Shown here: positions 2,251-5,823 of the stretch, piece after piece
Layout of the letters: the number at the start of each line of letters is the position of its first letter
How positions within the stretch are numbered: the stretch's first letter is position 1
From: Pseudomonadota bacterium
GTDB lineage: Bacteria; Desulfobacterota; Desulfuromonadia; Geobacterales; Pseudopelobacteraceae
Assembly (NCBI GenBank): GCA_019352135.1
Contig: JABBNX010000022.1
Span: 1 to 32,320, forward strand
Length of the DNA stretch: 32,320 bases
Direction of reading: 5' to 3'
Program-made: the position numbers and the translations under genes
Notes under the pieces: generated by a model
Databases searched by the model: none
Told to the model about the DNA's origin: nothing
The model's input: the letters and a program-made list of their open reading frames with translations, nothing else

Positions 2251-2279
2251 TTGACAAATAATATTAAATGTGCAAAATT
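2251..2279 (+). promoter_or_regulatory. Sigma-70 type promoter of the DUF6502-lipoprotein unit
   Basis: TTGACA (2251-2256) is a perfect -35 box. After 17 bases comes AAAATT (2274-2279), preceded by TG, an extended -10 feature. Transcription would start near 2286, leaving about 23 bases before the ATG at 2309. Confidence 0.6.
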
Positions 2280-2295
2280 CCCATTTAATATTATT
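2257..2295 (+). promoter_or_regulatory. Perfect 14-bp inverted repeat over the promoter (probable operator)
   Basis: AATAATATTAAATG (2257-2270) and CATTTAATATTATT (2282-2295) are exact reverse complements separated by 11 bases. The left arm begins right after the -35 box and the right arm spans the predicted start site, so a dimeric protein bound here would block RNA polymerase. The long spacer and AT-rich arms do not look like a terminator. Confidence 0.65.
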
Positions 2296-2308
2296 CCATT
2301 TCCAGGGT

Positions 2309-3238
2309 ATGCTAATCATGCCGGACAGCATAACTACAAAATCAGATGCATCAGCCAATTGCATAAACTCTGACACGGCCTTATTCAGGACACTTAACCG
2401 GCTGCTGGCCCCGTTGGCTCATCTTTGTCTTGCAAACGGCATTACGTTCTCTACTGCCGAAGAGGTCCTAAAGCGGGCTTTTGTGCAAGAAGCGAATGCA
2501 TTACAGCCGGGTGGGCCAGAGCACGGCATGGTCAGCCGTATTAGCACTGTTACAGGTATCAACCGTCGTGAGGTTACGCGGTTGGCCAAATTAGAAACAC
2601 CTGAGAGAGCGACCAAACAACCGCTTGCTGCCGAAGTACTCGCACGCTGGATGACAGACCATTCTTATCTTGACCAAGATGGTGAGTCAAACATGCTAAA
2701 TCGTTTAGGACCTGCGCCGAGCTTCGAAGCTCTTGCTCAGTCGGTTACTCGGGATGTCCACCACCGCAGCCTGCTCGATGAGCTGCTCCGTTTAGACATT
2801 GTCAGCTATGACAAAGACCTCGACCGCGTTGCTATCACCCGCAATGATTTTGTTCCAAGAGGTGATTCCCAGCAAATGCTCAATTTCTTGTGCGACAATG
2901 TCGGAGATCACCTCAATGCAGCCATCGCCAACGTTTTACACGATGGCAACAGGCACCTCGAACAGGCTGTCTTTGCAGACGAATTATCTACAGAGTCAAT
3001 AGAAACGTTACGGCCGCTTTTCATAGCCCACTGGAATGAACTTCGTGAAAACATGGTGCCTACCATCACGGCACTTATTGAGGCTGATAAACTTGCCGGT
3101 CGCGCACAGGACCAGCGTGTTCGCATCGGACTTTACACTTTCGCCGATACTACAACAGATGCTAAGGCACCACAAAAAGTTAGAGTTGCCCGCCGTTTTC
3201 GCAAAACGGCACCAAAGGAAAATATAAATGAAAACTAG
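2309..3238 (+). CDS. DUF6502 family protein, possible DNA-binding regulator
   Basis: The protein matches the DUF6502 pattern from memory: LFRTLNRLLAPLAHLCLANG near the N-terminus, then a GITFSTAEEVLKRAFVQEA helix and SRISTVTGINRREVTRL around residues 70-90. The last resembles a helix-turn-helix recognition unit, followed by a long helical region and a basic C-terminus (RVARRFRKTAPKE). There are no membrane segments or signal peptide, so it is cytoplasmic. I use ATG 2309; an ATG at 2318 is also possible. A GTG at 2270 lies inside the promoter repeat and is unlikely. The stop overlaps the next start by 11 bases, implying translational coupling with the lipoprotein. The function is not established; the regulatory role is inferred from the HTH-like stretch and the operator-like repeat at its own promoter. 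Confidence 0.8.
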   Translation: MLIMPDSITTKSDASANCINSDTALFRTLNRLLAPLAHLCLANGITFSTAEEVLKRAFVQEANALQPGGPEHGMVSRISTVTGINRREVTRLAKLETPERATKQPLAAEVLARWMTDHSYLDQDGESNMLNRLGPAPSFEALAQSVTRDVHHRSLLDELLRLDIVSYDKDLDRVAITRNDFVPRGDSQQMLNFLCDNVGDHLNAAIANVLHDGNRHLEQAVFADELSTESIETLRPLFIAHWNELRENMVPTITALIEADKLAGRAQDQRVRIGLYTFADTTTDAKAPQKVRVARRFRKTAPKENINEN

Positions 3239-4031
3239 CTATTTACAAAACAATTGGTCTTCGTGGCGGTTAATTGCCATATGTCTTTTCAGCGCTGCCA
3301 TCATCACAGGATGTGGCTCGGGTGGTGGATTTGATTCAACCGCCGGGGTCGGTACGGGTGGTACGGGTACATTAGCGAAGACAGTATCCGGTACAGTTGC
3401 TGATGGATATCTCGTAAACGCGACCGTATTCCTTGATCGGAACGGCAACTACCAATTAGATGCGGGCGAACCATCCACTACAACGGACTTAAATGGCACA
3501 TATAAGCTGAATGTTGACCCTGCAGATATTGGCAAGCACCCCATTGTTGCTCTGATTATCAAAGACGTCACCATCGACAAAGACACCAATCAAAAAGTTC
3601 TAAACAGCTATGTCCTCAGTATGCCGAAAGAAAATGTCAGCGGTTCGGTCAGCGACAACTTCATCAGCCCCATATCATCACAACTCCGTGAATTGATGGA
3701 AACGGGAAGATACACCACTGTGTTACAAGCCGCGGACGCTTTGAGGACTCAGATGGGACTGCCTGCCGGAACGGATATAACTGCGAATTACATTGTTTCC
3801 AATCATACAGTTATGCACTACGACGCACAGAACATGGCTACTCTTATGGGAAACCAGATGGGGCATGTAATGGGTATGGACGGCTCGTCAATAATCGTTG
3901 ACGTCAATCTCTATCGCACCATGATGGGAACTATCTACACCAACATGTCGACAGTCTGTGCACCAGACAATCACACTGAAATGACGGATCTCAGTGACAC
4001 TATGACAACGACGTTGTCCCACATGCATTGA
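3228..4031 (+). CDS. Putative lipoprotein with a calcium-loop-like repeat domain (paralogue 1)
   Basis: A hydrophobic signal segment ends in AAIITGC, a lipobox, so the mature protein would be lipid-anchored at a Cys near residue 29. A Gly/Thr linker follows, then a beta-rich domain, SGTVADGYLVNATVFLDRNG, with a D-x-N-G-N-x-x-x-D-x-G-E calcium-loop pattern and TDLNGTYKLNVDP. The middle has FISPISSQLRELMETG and a helical region. The C-terminal third is rich in Met (MATLMGNQMGHVMGMDG) and ends LSHMH. The gene overlaps the DUF6502 gene by 11 bases and is followed by a paralogue at 4233. Similar proteins occur in Geobacter from memory, but I know of no assigned function. Metal or calcium binding is inferred from composition only. 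Confidence 0.85.
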   Translation: MKTSYLQNNWSSWRLIAICLFSAAIITGCGSGGGFDSTAGVGTGGTGTLAKTVSGTVADGYLVNATVFLDRNGNYQLDAGEPSTTTDLNGTYKLNVDPADIGKHPIVALIIKDVTIDKDTNQKVLNSYVLSMPKENVSGSVSDNFISPISSQLRELMETGRYTTVLQAADALRTQMGLPAGTDITANYIVSNHTVMHYDAQNMATLMGNQMGHVMGMDGSSIIVDVNLYRTMMGTIYTNMSTVCAPDNHTEMTDLSDTMTTTLSHMH

Positions 4032-4232
4032 AGTTTTTGGGCAACCTTGCCGGATTATGTCAACCGCCTATTGGGCAAGAGGGGAGGGATTCAAACAAAT
4101 AAGAGCTGGATGGTCGGCGGATGATGTACTTTTTACTCAAAGTCGCGCTGTCATTTTCAAAATCAATATCAGAATTATGGCAACTCAACCACCACTGCAA
4201 AAATAGAGTAAATCCAACAAGGAGATATCACC

Positions 4233-5120
4233 ATGAAAAAACAGGTATCAGTAATACTATGTATTATTTCAGTCGGCATAATAGCAGGCTGCGGCGGCGG
4301 AAGCGATGGCGGGAGCGGTGTCATCCCAACAAGTAATACAATTAGCGGAAAAGTTGCTGATGGTTATCTCAGTGGAGCAGAGGTTTTCCTCGACAAGAAC
4401 GGCAACTATCAATGGGATAGCGGTGAACCAAAGACGACAACGGATGGCAACGGTGCATACAATATGACGGCATCAGCCGCAGATGCTGCGATGTACCCGA
4501 TGGTTGTTCATGCTATTGCTGGGGTAACCATAGACAAGGATACCAATACTGCCGTCACGAACAGTTATGTGTTGTGTGCACCAGCGGGTTCTACAGGATT
4601 TATCAGCCCAATGTCTACTCTTGTCTGGGAAAAAATGCATGCAAATCCGGGTATGCACTTAAACGATGCAACTACCCAACTCCGGAACCAGATGAACTTG
4701 CCTGCCGGTTTTGACATGATGTCGGACTATGTAGCTGGATCTCAGTCTGGAGTGAATGCAACCCATCACCAAGAGATGCACACCATCGCCCAGCAGATGG
4801 TTGACTTGATTGCTGGACAGTCAGCGCTGGTCATGCCAGGTGGCAACGTGAATGCTAACCGCTACCATGATATGATGGGGATAATCAACGCCAACATGTC
4901 GGGAATTGCAGCAAATACCGAACATCACCTGGACGAGCATAGTACGTTTATGACAACCATGATGACCTCAATGCATGACCATTTGGGGTCAATTTCAACG
5001 TCAGGCAGCTTCATTAACTACTCGTCGACGTTCCGTAACATGACGAGTAGCCGATATTTCTGGAATAATACCTCTGGAACCACCACGCCGATAACTCCTA
5101 TGGGTGGTGGTATGATGTAG
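4233..5120 (+). CDS. Putative Met/His-rich lipoprotein (paralogue 2)
   Basis: AAGGAG lies 8-9 bases before the ATG. The signal peptide ends in IIAGC, a lipobox, followed by a Gly-rich linker. It shares the layout of the upstream paralogue: ISGKVADGYLSGAEVFLDKN, the same N-G-N-x-x-x-D-x-G-E loop, VTIDKDTN, NSYVL, GFISPMS and the QLRNQMNLPAG block. The C-terminal half differs by being strongly enriched in Met and His (HHQEMH, EHHLDEH, MMTSMHDHLG, PMGGGMM). Such composition is typical of periplasmic copper or silver handling proteins, but no known fold motif confirms this. It is probably a tandem duplication of the gene at 3228, with its own ribosome binding site and a 200-base gap that may hold a separate promoter. 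Confidence 0.85.
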   Translation: MKKQVSVILCIISVGIIAGCGGGSDGGSGVIPTSNTISGKVADGYLSGAEVFLDKNGNYQWDSGEPKTTTDGNGAYNMTASAADAAMYPMVVHAIAGVTIDKDTNTAVTNSYVLCAPAGSTGFISPMSTLVWEKMHANPGMHLNDATTQLRNQMNLPAGFDMMSDYVAGSQSGVNATHHQEMHTIAQQMVDLIAGQSALVMPGGNVNANRYHDMMGIINANMSGIAANTEHHLDEHSTFMTTMMTSMHDHLGSISTSGSFINYSSTFRNMTSSRYFWNNTSGTTTPITPMGGGMM

Positions 5121-5170
5121 ATACGCAGAGGTAATCATCATAGTTGGCACTGTCAATGTTTCAGGTATAG

Positions 5171-5204
5171 TAAACGGACATTTACCGAGGTAAGTGTCCG
5201 TTTA
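5171..5204 (+). repeat. 34-bp hairpin at a gene breakpoint, possible terminator or element scar
   Basis: TAAACGGACA-T-TTACC and GGTAA-G-TGTCCGTTTA form a 16-bp stem with one T-G pair and a two-base tip. It lies 50 bases after the lipoprotein stop, so it may terminate that transcript in either direction. It also sits just where the truncated HlyD gene begins, and its outer ends (TGTCCGTTTA) resemble insertion-element termini. The two readings cannot be separated from this sequence alone. Confidence 0.6.
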
Positions 5205-5205
5205 T

Positions 5206-5823
5206 GTTTTAGGTGGTAGTTTGTCGGGTACTCAACAAGAAGCTCAGCAGTCTGATGCCCAGTTGCAAGTGCAGTTGGCTGCGCTTGATCGCGATAAGGC
5301 TGGAGTAGATAGTGCTCGGTTGCAAGTATCAATTCTTGATGCTGATCTAAAAAAAGCTGAAAGTGCGCGGGACCGTTCACAGGCAGCTCTGGCTGCTGCT
5401 AAATTAAATCTTTCCTACACCCGCATTACAGCGCCGATTGACGGTACGATATCACACCGTTCTCTTCGGCAAGTAGCATTCGTCAACGTTGGTTCGCCGC
5501 TTCTTGCGTTGGTTCCATTGGATAAAGTGTATATCGAGGCGAACATTCGTGAAACCCAACTTGCCCACATCCATCCTGGTCAGTCCGTAACGATCAGCAT
5601 TGATACGCTACCCGGCGTCATACTTTTGGGGAGAGTTGCCAGCTTGGCATCAGCCAGTGGAGCTTCTTTTGCTCCCGTAGCGCCACAAAACGCCACGGGC
5701 AATTTCACCAAGGTGGTTCAGCGCGTCCCAGTTCGCATCAGTATCAACCCTGGCCAAGCAGCCAGCCAGCAATTGCGTGTTGGAATGTCAGTGCAGCCAA
5801 CAATTGAGACTAGCTGCGACTAG
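5206..5823 (+). pseudogene. HlyD/EmrA-type membrane fusion protein, C-terminal remnant
   Basis: About 205 residues cover the second arm of the coiled-coil hairpin (Gln/Ala-rich, QLAALDRDKAGVDSARLQVS), then LSYTRITAPIDGTISHRSLR, the second half of the lipoyl domain. The beta-barrel part (VYIEANIRETQLAHIHPGQ, VTISIDTLPG) follows, with an end typical of EmrA (RVPVRISI, LRVGMSVQPTIET). The N-terminal membrane anchor, first lipoyl half and first coil are missing, and no credible start or ribosome binding site precedes it. The frame opens through the hairpin at 5171-5204, which marks the breakpoint. No EmrB-type transporter follows. A working periplasmic adaptor is therefore unlikely. Confidence 0.8.

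Follow-up and report, generated by a model that had tools for sequence, protein, structure and literature searches.

A DUF6502 operon with a palindromic operator and a tagged exported partner: a candidate self-regulated module

DUF6502 (PF20112) is a protein family of unassigned function. We analysed a 32,320-nucleotide stretch of DNA (the window; contig JABBNX010000022.1 of assembly GCA_019352135.1, from a member of the Pseudopelobacteraceae) that contains a DUF6502 gene followed by two lipoprotein genes. We consider it likely that these genes belong to a self-regulated operon, in which DUF6502 would bind a palindrome over its own promoter and so control its own gene together with a coupled gene for an exported protein. 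DUF6502 is most likely the autoregulator of its operon, and probably a repressor rather than an activator. Sequence comparison establishes that the palindrome exists, lies at the promoter, is nearly unique in the genomes searched and is linked to DUF6502; it also establishes that the partner gene is coupled and that its protein has a conserved tag. In the sequences compared, this tag reads GVG[TS]GGTG or, in some clades, a variant that keeps a G-[TS]-G core, whatever the main domain of the protein that carries it. An earlier note on the window had proposed a metal- or calcium-related envelope system; it noticed neither the operator nor the tag, which are the two most conserved features.

Operator and promoter of the DUF6502 operon

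The DUF6502 gene (2318..3238, + strand; 306 aa) is the only copy found in the genome of the window. Its likely start is the ATG at 2318; the longest open reading frame (ORF) begins with a GTG at 2270, inside the operator. The partner gene, for lipoprotein 1 (3228..4031, +; 267 aa), starts at 3228, ahead of the end of the DUF6502 ORF at 3238, giving the overlap of 11 bases that the earlier note had reported. The gene for lipoprotein 2, a paralogue (4233..5120, +; 295 aa), follows. Consensus scans mark the three genes as one operon, with a promoter at the 5′ end and a terminator-like hairpin of 16 pairs (5170..5205, +) at the 3′ end; the promoter calls come from a scan that found 11 promoter-like sites against 5.4 in shuffles. 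The sigma-70-like promoter, TTGACA-16-CAAAAT at 2251–2278, matches the consensus at 10 of 12 positions. Its −35 element (TTGACA, 2251..2256, +) lies 16 nt ahead of a −10 element (CAAAAT, 2273..2278, +) that falls within the palindromic candidate operator (TAAATGTGCAAAATTCCCATTTA, 2265..2287). This operator is the sole site with three or fewer mismatches to TAAATGTGCANNNTGCACATTTA in the 3.8-Mb genome.

By Pfam score, DUF6502 proteins form two sequence groups, a canonical one (98 to 318 bits, the 98-bit value being that of a cut-off fragment) and that of the window (43 to 86 bits); one partial divergent copy scores 55 bits. Counts over named loci refer in what follows to the best 80 of 111 loci of the window's group, which by their record titles come mostly from Geobacteraceae/Desulfuromonadales and Betaproteobacteria (Burkholderiales, Zoogloea). 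The closest of them to the window is a Desulfuromonadales metagenome-assembled genome (L055), at 78% in DUF6502. The palindrome consensus 5′ of DUF6502 is TAAATGTGCA-NNN-TGCACATTTA. Scanning about 1.8 kb upstream of the first helix-turn-helix (HTH) found a site with at most two mismatches to AAATG[TG]G-N7-C[AC]CATTT in 71 of the 80 loci, 49 of them exact, compared with none of 80 shuffled regions and 7 of 80 with the reversed pattern.

DUF6502 is present in 22 of 147 relatives and in 17 of 395 phylum-wide genomes, the window's own genome being counted in both sets. A genome-wide scan of the 147 relatives gave 17 genomes with a site at one mismatch or less: in 14 the site stands at a DUF6502 gene, in one (G052) it stands before a decayed DUF6502 remnant beside a lipoprotein, and in the remaining two (G038, G050) the sites look like chance. 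Only one of the 125 relatives without DUF6502 has the site. Seven DUF6502-bearing genomes have none at the gene (G014, G019, G028, G032, G038, G046 and G121), and neither does the intact DUF6502 of G052. At the decayed remnant (L148, about 1240–1490 of that locus, − strand) the HTH is still readable, a perfect operator lies at 1501–1523 and an untagged lipoprotein is next. Another scan covered 38 DUF6502-carrying genomes, reached via 40 of the 80 named loci (selected by hand rather than at random, two of the loci sharing a genome). Of these, 32 have a site at one mismatch or less, for a total of 35 sites; the control gave none. Twenty-six of the sites lie 34–204 nt before the DUF6502 match, and five lie 770–1429 nt before it, ahead of an extra first gene of the operon. 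Aquabacterium sp. CECT 9606 (L104) has two exact operators, 52 bp apart, before DUF6502, and the genome of L082 has a perfect operator remote from DUF6502 (L211; one of four such sites), near what by eye is a CAAX-type-protease-like membrane protein.

The operator and the operon's own promoter overlap in two registers, as judged from best-fit consensus boxes, which at a number of loci are weaker. Most Geobacteraceae-type loci have TTGACA, or a sequence close to it, 16 nt ahead of a TAAAAT- or CAAAAT-like box inside the operator, and in Zoogloea-type loci the operator occupies the spacer between TTGAAA and a TATAAT-like box. Promoter occlusion is kept while the register differs, and this is our best argument for favouring repression. 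Other clades have other palindromes. Canonical-type loci carry GGGA...TCCC palindromes with perfect arms in 12 of 20 cases, mostly like TTTGGGA-N6-TCCCAAA and, in 9 of those 12, directly before the ATG. The alphaproteobacterial form, GTGGGA-N5-TCCCAC, was found in four of nine records (Azospirillum, Methylocystis, Microvirga and Pseudoroseomonas).

Adjacent to the operon in the window, an EamA-family transporter with a long His-rich tail (999–2108, −) is divergent from it, and 5194–5823 (+) encodes an HlyD/CusB-like membrane-fusion protein, apparently without an N-terminal membrane anchor and possibly truncated.

The partner gene and its tag

The gene after DUF6502 is a lipobox ORF in all 75 readable loci, that is, those with at least 250 nt past DUF6502 (5 of the 80 were too short), and the most frequent junction, seen in 30 of 75, is an overlap of 4 bases. 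GG[TS]G occurs within 60 residues of the lipidated Cys in 74 of these 75 partners, as GGTG in 71; the consensus is G-V-G-[TS]-G-G-T-G and the median position 12 residues past the Cys. At the exception, L070, SGGTG is carried by the second gene of the same locus. In lipoprotein 1 the lipobox Cys29 (3312..3314, +) is Cys in 21 of 21 aligned sequences, and the sequence pattern GVGTGGTG is encoded at 3345..3368 (+).

Comparison of neighbourhoods, as proposed in the earlier note, bears out the adjacency of DUF6502 and an exported lipoprotein at every readable locus but not the expected kind of lipoprotein: the DGYL motif of the window's family (the VADGYL family) is found in only 9 of the 75 partners. 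Ten partners scanned with Pfam comprised two beta-propellers (PF09826), two serpins, one DUF4382, two DUF5666 and three without a family above cut-off, one of these three being of the window's VADGYL type. The exported families DUF5666, DUF4382, serpin and Beta_propel (PF09826) supply the main domains of partners, but the tag is not part of them. At sixteen loci an additional gene comes first in the operon, between operator and DUF6502; in 11 of them it is an untagged DUF5666-like lipoprotein (by eye); 10 of those 11 loci are readable behind DUF6502, and in all 10 the gene there is a tagged DUF5666-like lipoprotein. The extra first gene of L086 is another kind of protein.

Second genes tell the same way. 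Geobacter-type operons include eight VADGYL-family second genes without GVG[TS]GGTG, lipoprotein 2 among them; two (lipoprotein 2 and that of L055) have GGSG, which is not counted as the tag. Since paralogues in the same operon are untagged, the tag belongs to the gene directly behind DUF6502. Two further paralogues elsewhere in the genome of the window (C61, C64) are also untagged, and GG[TS]G occurs in none of 42 other lipobox ORFs of the flanks; these flanking ORFs and the untagged paralogues rule out a general lipoprotein feature. Across 66 loci, chosen by the peptide pattern, the third codon positions of the tag vary freely; that choice itself accounts in part for the invariance of the first and second positions. 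Given the variable third positions, the peptide rather than the DNA is selected, and a DNA or RNA element is ruled out. The constant partner of DUF6502 is a GGTG-tagged exported protein, not a Met/His-rich one, and the linkage is beyond chance.

As a DNA pattern, GVGxGGTG (which misses other tag forms) occurs at 45 places in the 147 relatives, 20 of them in the partner of a DUF6502; the 23 that were inspected out of 25 places away from DUF6502 include no tagged exported protein. Over 23 of the 38 DUF6502-bearing genomes, a stricter pattern matched at 21 places, of which 3 fall in unrelated ORFs and 18 lie behind a DUF6502. One of the 18 follows a second, divergent DUF6502 of Caldimonas manganoxidans (L246), which came to light through the tag and stands directly before a GVGSGGTG DUF5666-like lipoprotein. 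A lipobox ORF was picked at 19 of 21 canonical loci, with GG[TS]G in 11 and, counting L044 (GGIGGTG), in 12.

Alphaproteobacterial partners that have an annotation in their records are DUF5666 proteins. Eight of the alphaproteobacterial partners read (L230, L233, L234 and L236–L240) carry the tag twice, as DRGIGGTG...DRGIGGTG in Azospirillum and Microvirga, ERGIGGTG...DRGIGGTG in Pseudoroseomonas and DHGIGGSG...DHGIGGTG in Rhizobium acidisoli. The partners of R. acidisoli, R. johnstonii and R. etli have, by eye, a Tat-like signal and no lipobox Cys, and because they are tagged nonetheless the tag is independent of lipidation. Tat-like twin-arginine signals were seen in partners L097, L102, L233, L236 and L238, others looking Sec-dependent (by eye), and the export route of tagged partners seems not to be conserved. 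In the Variovorax partner GVGSGGTG lies about 100 residues past the Cys. The signal and tag region of partners L067, L075, L083 and the window (3228–4031) has a sub-threshold likeness, 14 to 20 bits against a cut-off of 37, to the NCBIfam model NF058595 ‘lipo-invert’. A search of the open literature, with subscription papers and preprints outside its scope, found no mention of DUF6502, PF20112, GVGTGGTG or lipo-invert; DUF5666 was mentioned in four papers and DUF4423/TIGR02147 in one.

The DUF6502 protein and known regulators

The window protein matches PF20112 at 68.9 bits, against a curated cut-off of 27, and the HTH-like stretch described in the earlier note recurs in predicted models. AlphaFold2 models of the window protein (75 sequences; pLDDT 84.4, pTM 0.69) and of the Caldimonas protein (68 sequences; pLDDT 85.6, pTM 0.71) agree on the layout: a helical N-terminal part with the HTH, then a winged helix, and at the C-terminus a part that has two long helices. 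In the window model the first HTH spans residues 71–90 (MVSRISTVTGINRREVTRLA; 2528..2587, +) and has many invariant residues. The winged-helix domain follows at residues 97–180 (2606..2857, +), with many matches to winged HTH (wHTH) proteins at Z 5.4 to 6.5, and the C-terminal domain, residues 181–278 (2858..3151, +; motifs GDNVGDHL and AVFADELS), is a candidate ligand or dimer domain. The winged-helix search that the earlier note had called for was thus positive for the predicted structures: VIA-align of both models against the PDB gave many wHTH DNA-binding proteins among the best 50 matches of each, aligned along 60 to 80 residues with Z 5 to 7, together with proteins that do not bind DNA, such as a calcium-uniporter domain. 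Foldseek gave no match below E 0.001 for the window model, and a sequence search of the PDB with DUF6502 gave no significant match. A Pfam scan of 75 members named DUF6502 in all and otherwise scattered weak families (the best, 25 of 43 families). DUF6502 is predicted from these models to be a tandem helix-turn-helix protein, HTH plus winged helix.

DUF6502 also occurs on mobile DNA, with tblastn matches on 75 plasmid records (66 from Rhizobium) and two Acinetobacter phage records. Cultured bacteria that have it include R. johnstonii 3841 (RL_RS33240), R. etli CFN 42 (RHE_RS27340), Caldimonas manganoxidans and Zoogloea. At L051 the DUF6502 frame stays open across a Lys/Arg-rich linker and runs into a lipoprotein bearing GRGTGIVG, possibly a natural fusion of regulator and partner, or else two genes without an intervening stop.

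Classical local autorepressors of the BlaI/MecI, MarR and TetR kinds share with DUF6502 the wHTH fold and a palindrome over the promoter of their own operon; unlike them, DUF6502 has another domain order, no known ligand and a constant tagged exported partner. For the one DUF4423/TIGR02147 protein that a search returned above cut-off, the alignment to DUF6502 is collinear and covers the last part of the wHTH plus the C-terminal domain (hhalign 26.4, with 40 shuffles at or below 18.6); the comparison, with its single target sequence, is weak, and 1 of 200 real decoys outscores it. By eye its N-terminal HTH differs from that of DUF6502, and a Pfam scan of the window protein gave no DUF4423 match at E up to 1.

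The cyanobacterial heterocyst regulator HetR invites a closer comparison. In published work HetR recognises a palindrome as well as DNA lying ahead of its own gene and requires GGGN5CCC (PMC4192349), a PatS-derived hexapeptide binds the HetR hood, DNA release being proposed by the authors (PMC4649674), and the PatS, HetN and PatX peptides carry RG(S/T)GR (PMC7761841). DUF6502 resembles this system in its length of about 300 aa, its palindromic site and a partner with a G-[ST]-G core. It differs in its sites, which are GTG forms (GTG...CCC in the window) or, in other DUF6502 clades, GGGN7CCC or GGGN8CCC, and in its tag, which is GGTG on a whole exported protein instead of RGSGR. HetR, whose fold comprises DNA-binding, flap and hood parts, gave the only alignments of more than 200 residues among the best 50 VIA-align matches of each model. 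With the window model it takes ranks 1–5 at Z 8.1 to 7.1 (best 4j00, Z 8.1, rmsd 11.5, 230 residues), and with the Caldimonas model ranks 1–4 at Z 7.7 to 7.1 and rank 8 at Z 6.8 (best 215 residues, rmsd 10.7). These alignments have rmsd 10.3 to 11.5, and a Z near 8 can reflect a common arrangement; HetR was not among the best 50 Foldseek matches of the window model.

Kinship with HetR by sequence was rejected. DUF6502 profiles of 75, 99 and 108 proteins score at or below chance, with hhalign values of 14.0 against a mean of 14.25 for 60 shuffles and 12.6 against a mean of 14.7 for 200 decoys, the HetR side having been built from one or two sequences. The best local match is collinear (VAITRNDFVPRGD with YALTRPFYAPADD) and not significant. 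A HetR-like DNA site was likewise set aside: the extra G's of the hetP palindrome overlap in register, but HetR needs GGGN5CCC and the alphaproteobacterial form is GGGN7CCC. No HetR was found in a search of plasmids and viral contigs, and a literature search for HetR homologues outside cyanobacteria found nothing relevant in the portions of papers it returned. DUF6502 is not classed here as HetR, the profile comparison giving no support and the DNA site being different.

Mechanism and alternative explanations

In the self-regulated operon that we favour, DUF6502 would act as a dimeric HTH factor occupying the palindrome over its own promoter, and the occupied operator would shut down (less likely, switch on) a single operon made up of the DUF6502 gene and its exported partner. 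That DUF6502 itself binds the palindrome, and represses, is what we infer. DUF6502 might further read the tag, for instance on a tagged precursor awaiting export, and expression would then follow export. We suggest this because the tag goes with the gene directly behind DUF6502 and is retained when the main domain is exchanged; that the tag is read by DUF6502, most simply on a precursor still in the cytoplasm, is a tentative proposal, in our judgement nearer a third than a half in likelihood. A more specific and unlikely version would be a regulator–peptide pair like HetR/PatS outside cyanobacteria, in which the C-terminal domain would bind a GGTG peptide and the dimer would leave the operator. 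There the peptide would be carried by or released from the co-encoded exported protein, the tag would be the signal and the exported domain exchangeable cargo.

Several observations weigh against self-regulation by DUF6502 or against a tag that concerns it. Nine of the 80 loci have no site at two or fewer mismatches, 4 of the 35 genome-wide sites are remote from DUF6502, and the reversed-pattern control also matches in 7 of the 147 relatives, where the matches look like chance. The alphaproteobacterial form of the palindrome was not found before five of nine alphaproteobacterial DUF6502 genes (Rhizobium, Mesorhizobium). On the side of the tag, the extra first gene also has GGTG in 4 of 16 loci (L072, L085, L133 and L134), and among the other canonical loci six have only the G[TS]G core, L041 has none, L036 is masked and L047 has no lipobox ORF. 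An Acinetobacter haemolyticus plasmid has its SLGGTG lipoprotein 1.2 kb past DUF6502, and one Acinetobacter phage record has no partner, the next gene being a transposase on the other strand. Gly-rich stretches past the lipobox are common, and the tag may have a role unrelated to DUF6502. Activation, though less likely, could take the place of repression.

A serious rival, to which we give somewhat less than an even chance, is that DUF6502 merely regulates and that another protein, outside the cytoplasm, reads the tag as a signal for sorting, processing or anchoring in the envelope, the linkage reflecting co-expression. The tag does sit just behind the signal peptide, at a median of 12 residues past the Cys, where sorting signals act; it accompanies both lipoprotein and Tat-like non-lipoprotein signals (as judged by eye), and there is the very weak likeness to the ‘lipo-invert’ anchoring model, at best 20.0 bits against 37. 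Yet second exported paralogues of the same operons are mostly untagged, the Variovorax tag lies some 100 residues past the Cys, and a general sorting apparatus would have just one or two proteins to handle in each genome, the inspected off-locus GVGxGGTG matches including no tagged exported protein (0 of 23). DUF6502 might instead work in the cytoplasm on the tagged precursor, as its chaperone or export adaptor, with another factor on the palindrome. Such a role would fit the translational coupling (at 30 of 75 loci the overlap is 4 bases) and the fact that DUF6502 is paired with a tagged precursor; it is nevertheless very doubtful in view of the predicted HTH and wHTH folds, of a palindrome that stays with the DUF6502 operon even where another gene is first, and of a palindrome form that changes with the DUF6502 clade.

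The idea of the earlier note, a metal- or calcium-responsive regulator with metal-binding surface lipoproteins, we regard as the most improbable of these explanations. Its regulatory half stands: a regulator is very probable from the predicted HTH and wHTH, the operator and the adjacency, whereas a metal or calcium sensor role is unsupported. The window lipoproteins, 47% identical and with lipoboxes ITGC (lipoprotein 1) and IAGC (lipoprotein 2) by eye, are indeed Met- and His-rich, Met plus His making up 8.6% and 12.2%, respectively, so that a Met/His-rich paralogue does follow. In the alignment of 21 VADGYL-family members, acidic positions of the D-x-N-x-N type are conserved, and the divergent EamA neighbour has its His-rich tail. 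Against this, His is hardly conserved in that alignment: 1 of 7 His in lipoprotein 1 and 2 of 12 in lipoprotein 2 fall at columns shared by at least half of the members (for Met, 13 of 16 and 14 of 24), and the columns conserved in at least 75% include one His and five Met. Neither lipoprotein has a Pfam or NCBIfam metal domain above cut-off, and most DUF6502 partners lie outside the VADGYL family; the claim that the surface proteins bind metal or calcium is unsupported. The carboxypeptidase regulatory-like domain PF13620 was considered for lipoproteins 1 and 2 and rejected at 16.2 and 13.9 bits against a cut-off of 32.3.

With autoregulation as the preferred reading, a family of unassigned function gains a testable role and a named, near-unique candidate binding site. 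The comparisons indicate an undescribed regulator-and-tag module across several bacterial lineages. That one short peptide recurs on DUF5666, DUF4382, serpin and beta-propeller proteins next to the same regulator is, to our knowledge, hard to fit to known sorting signals. If the regulator does read the tag, the module would be a compact coupling of expression to export, or to a peptide signal, across Desulfobacterota and Pseudomonadota.

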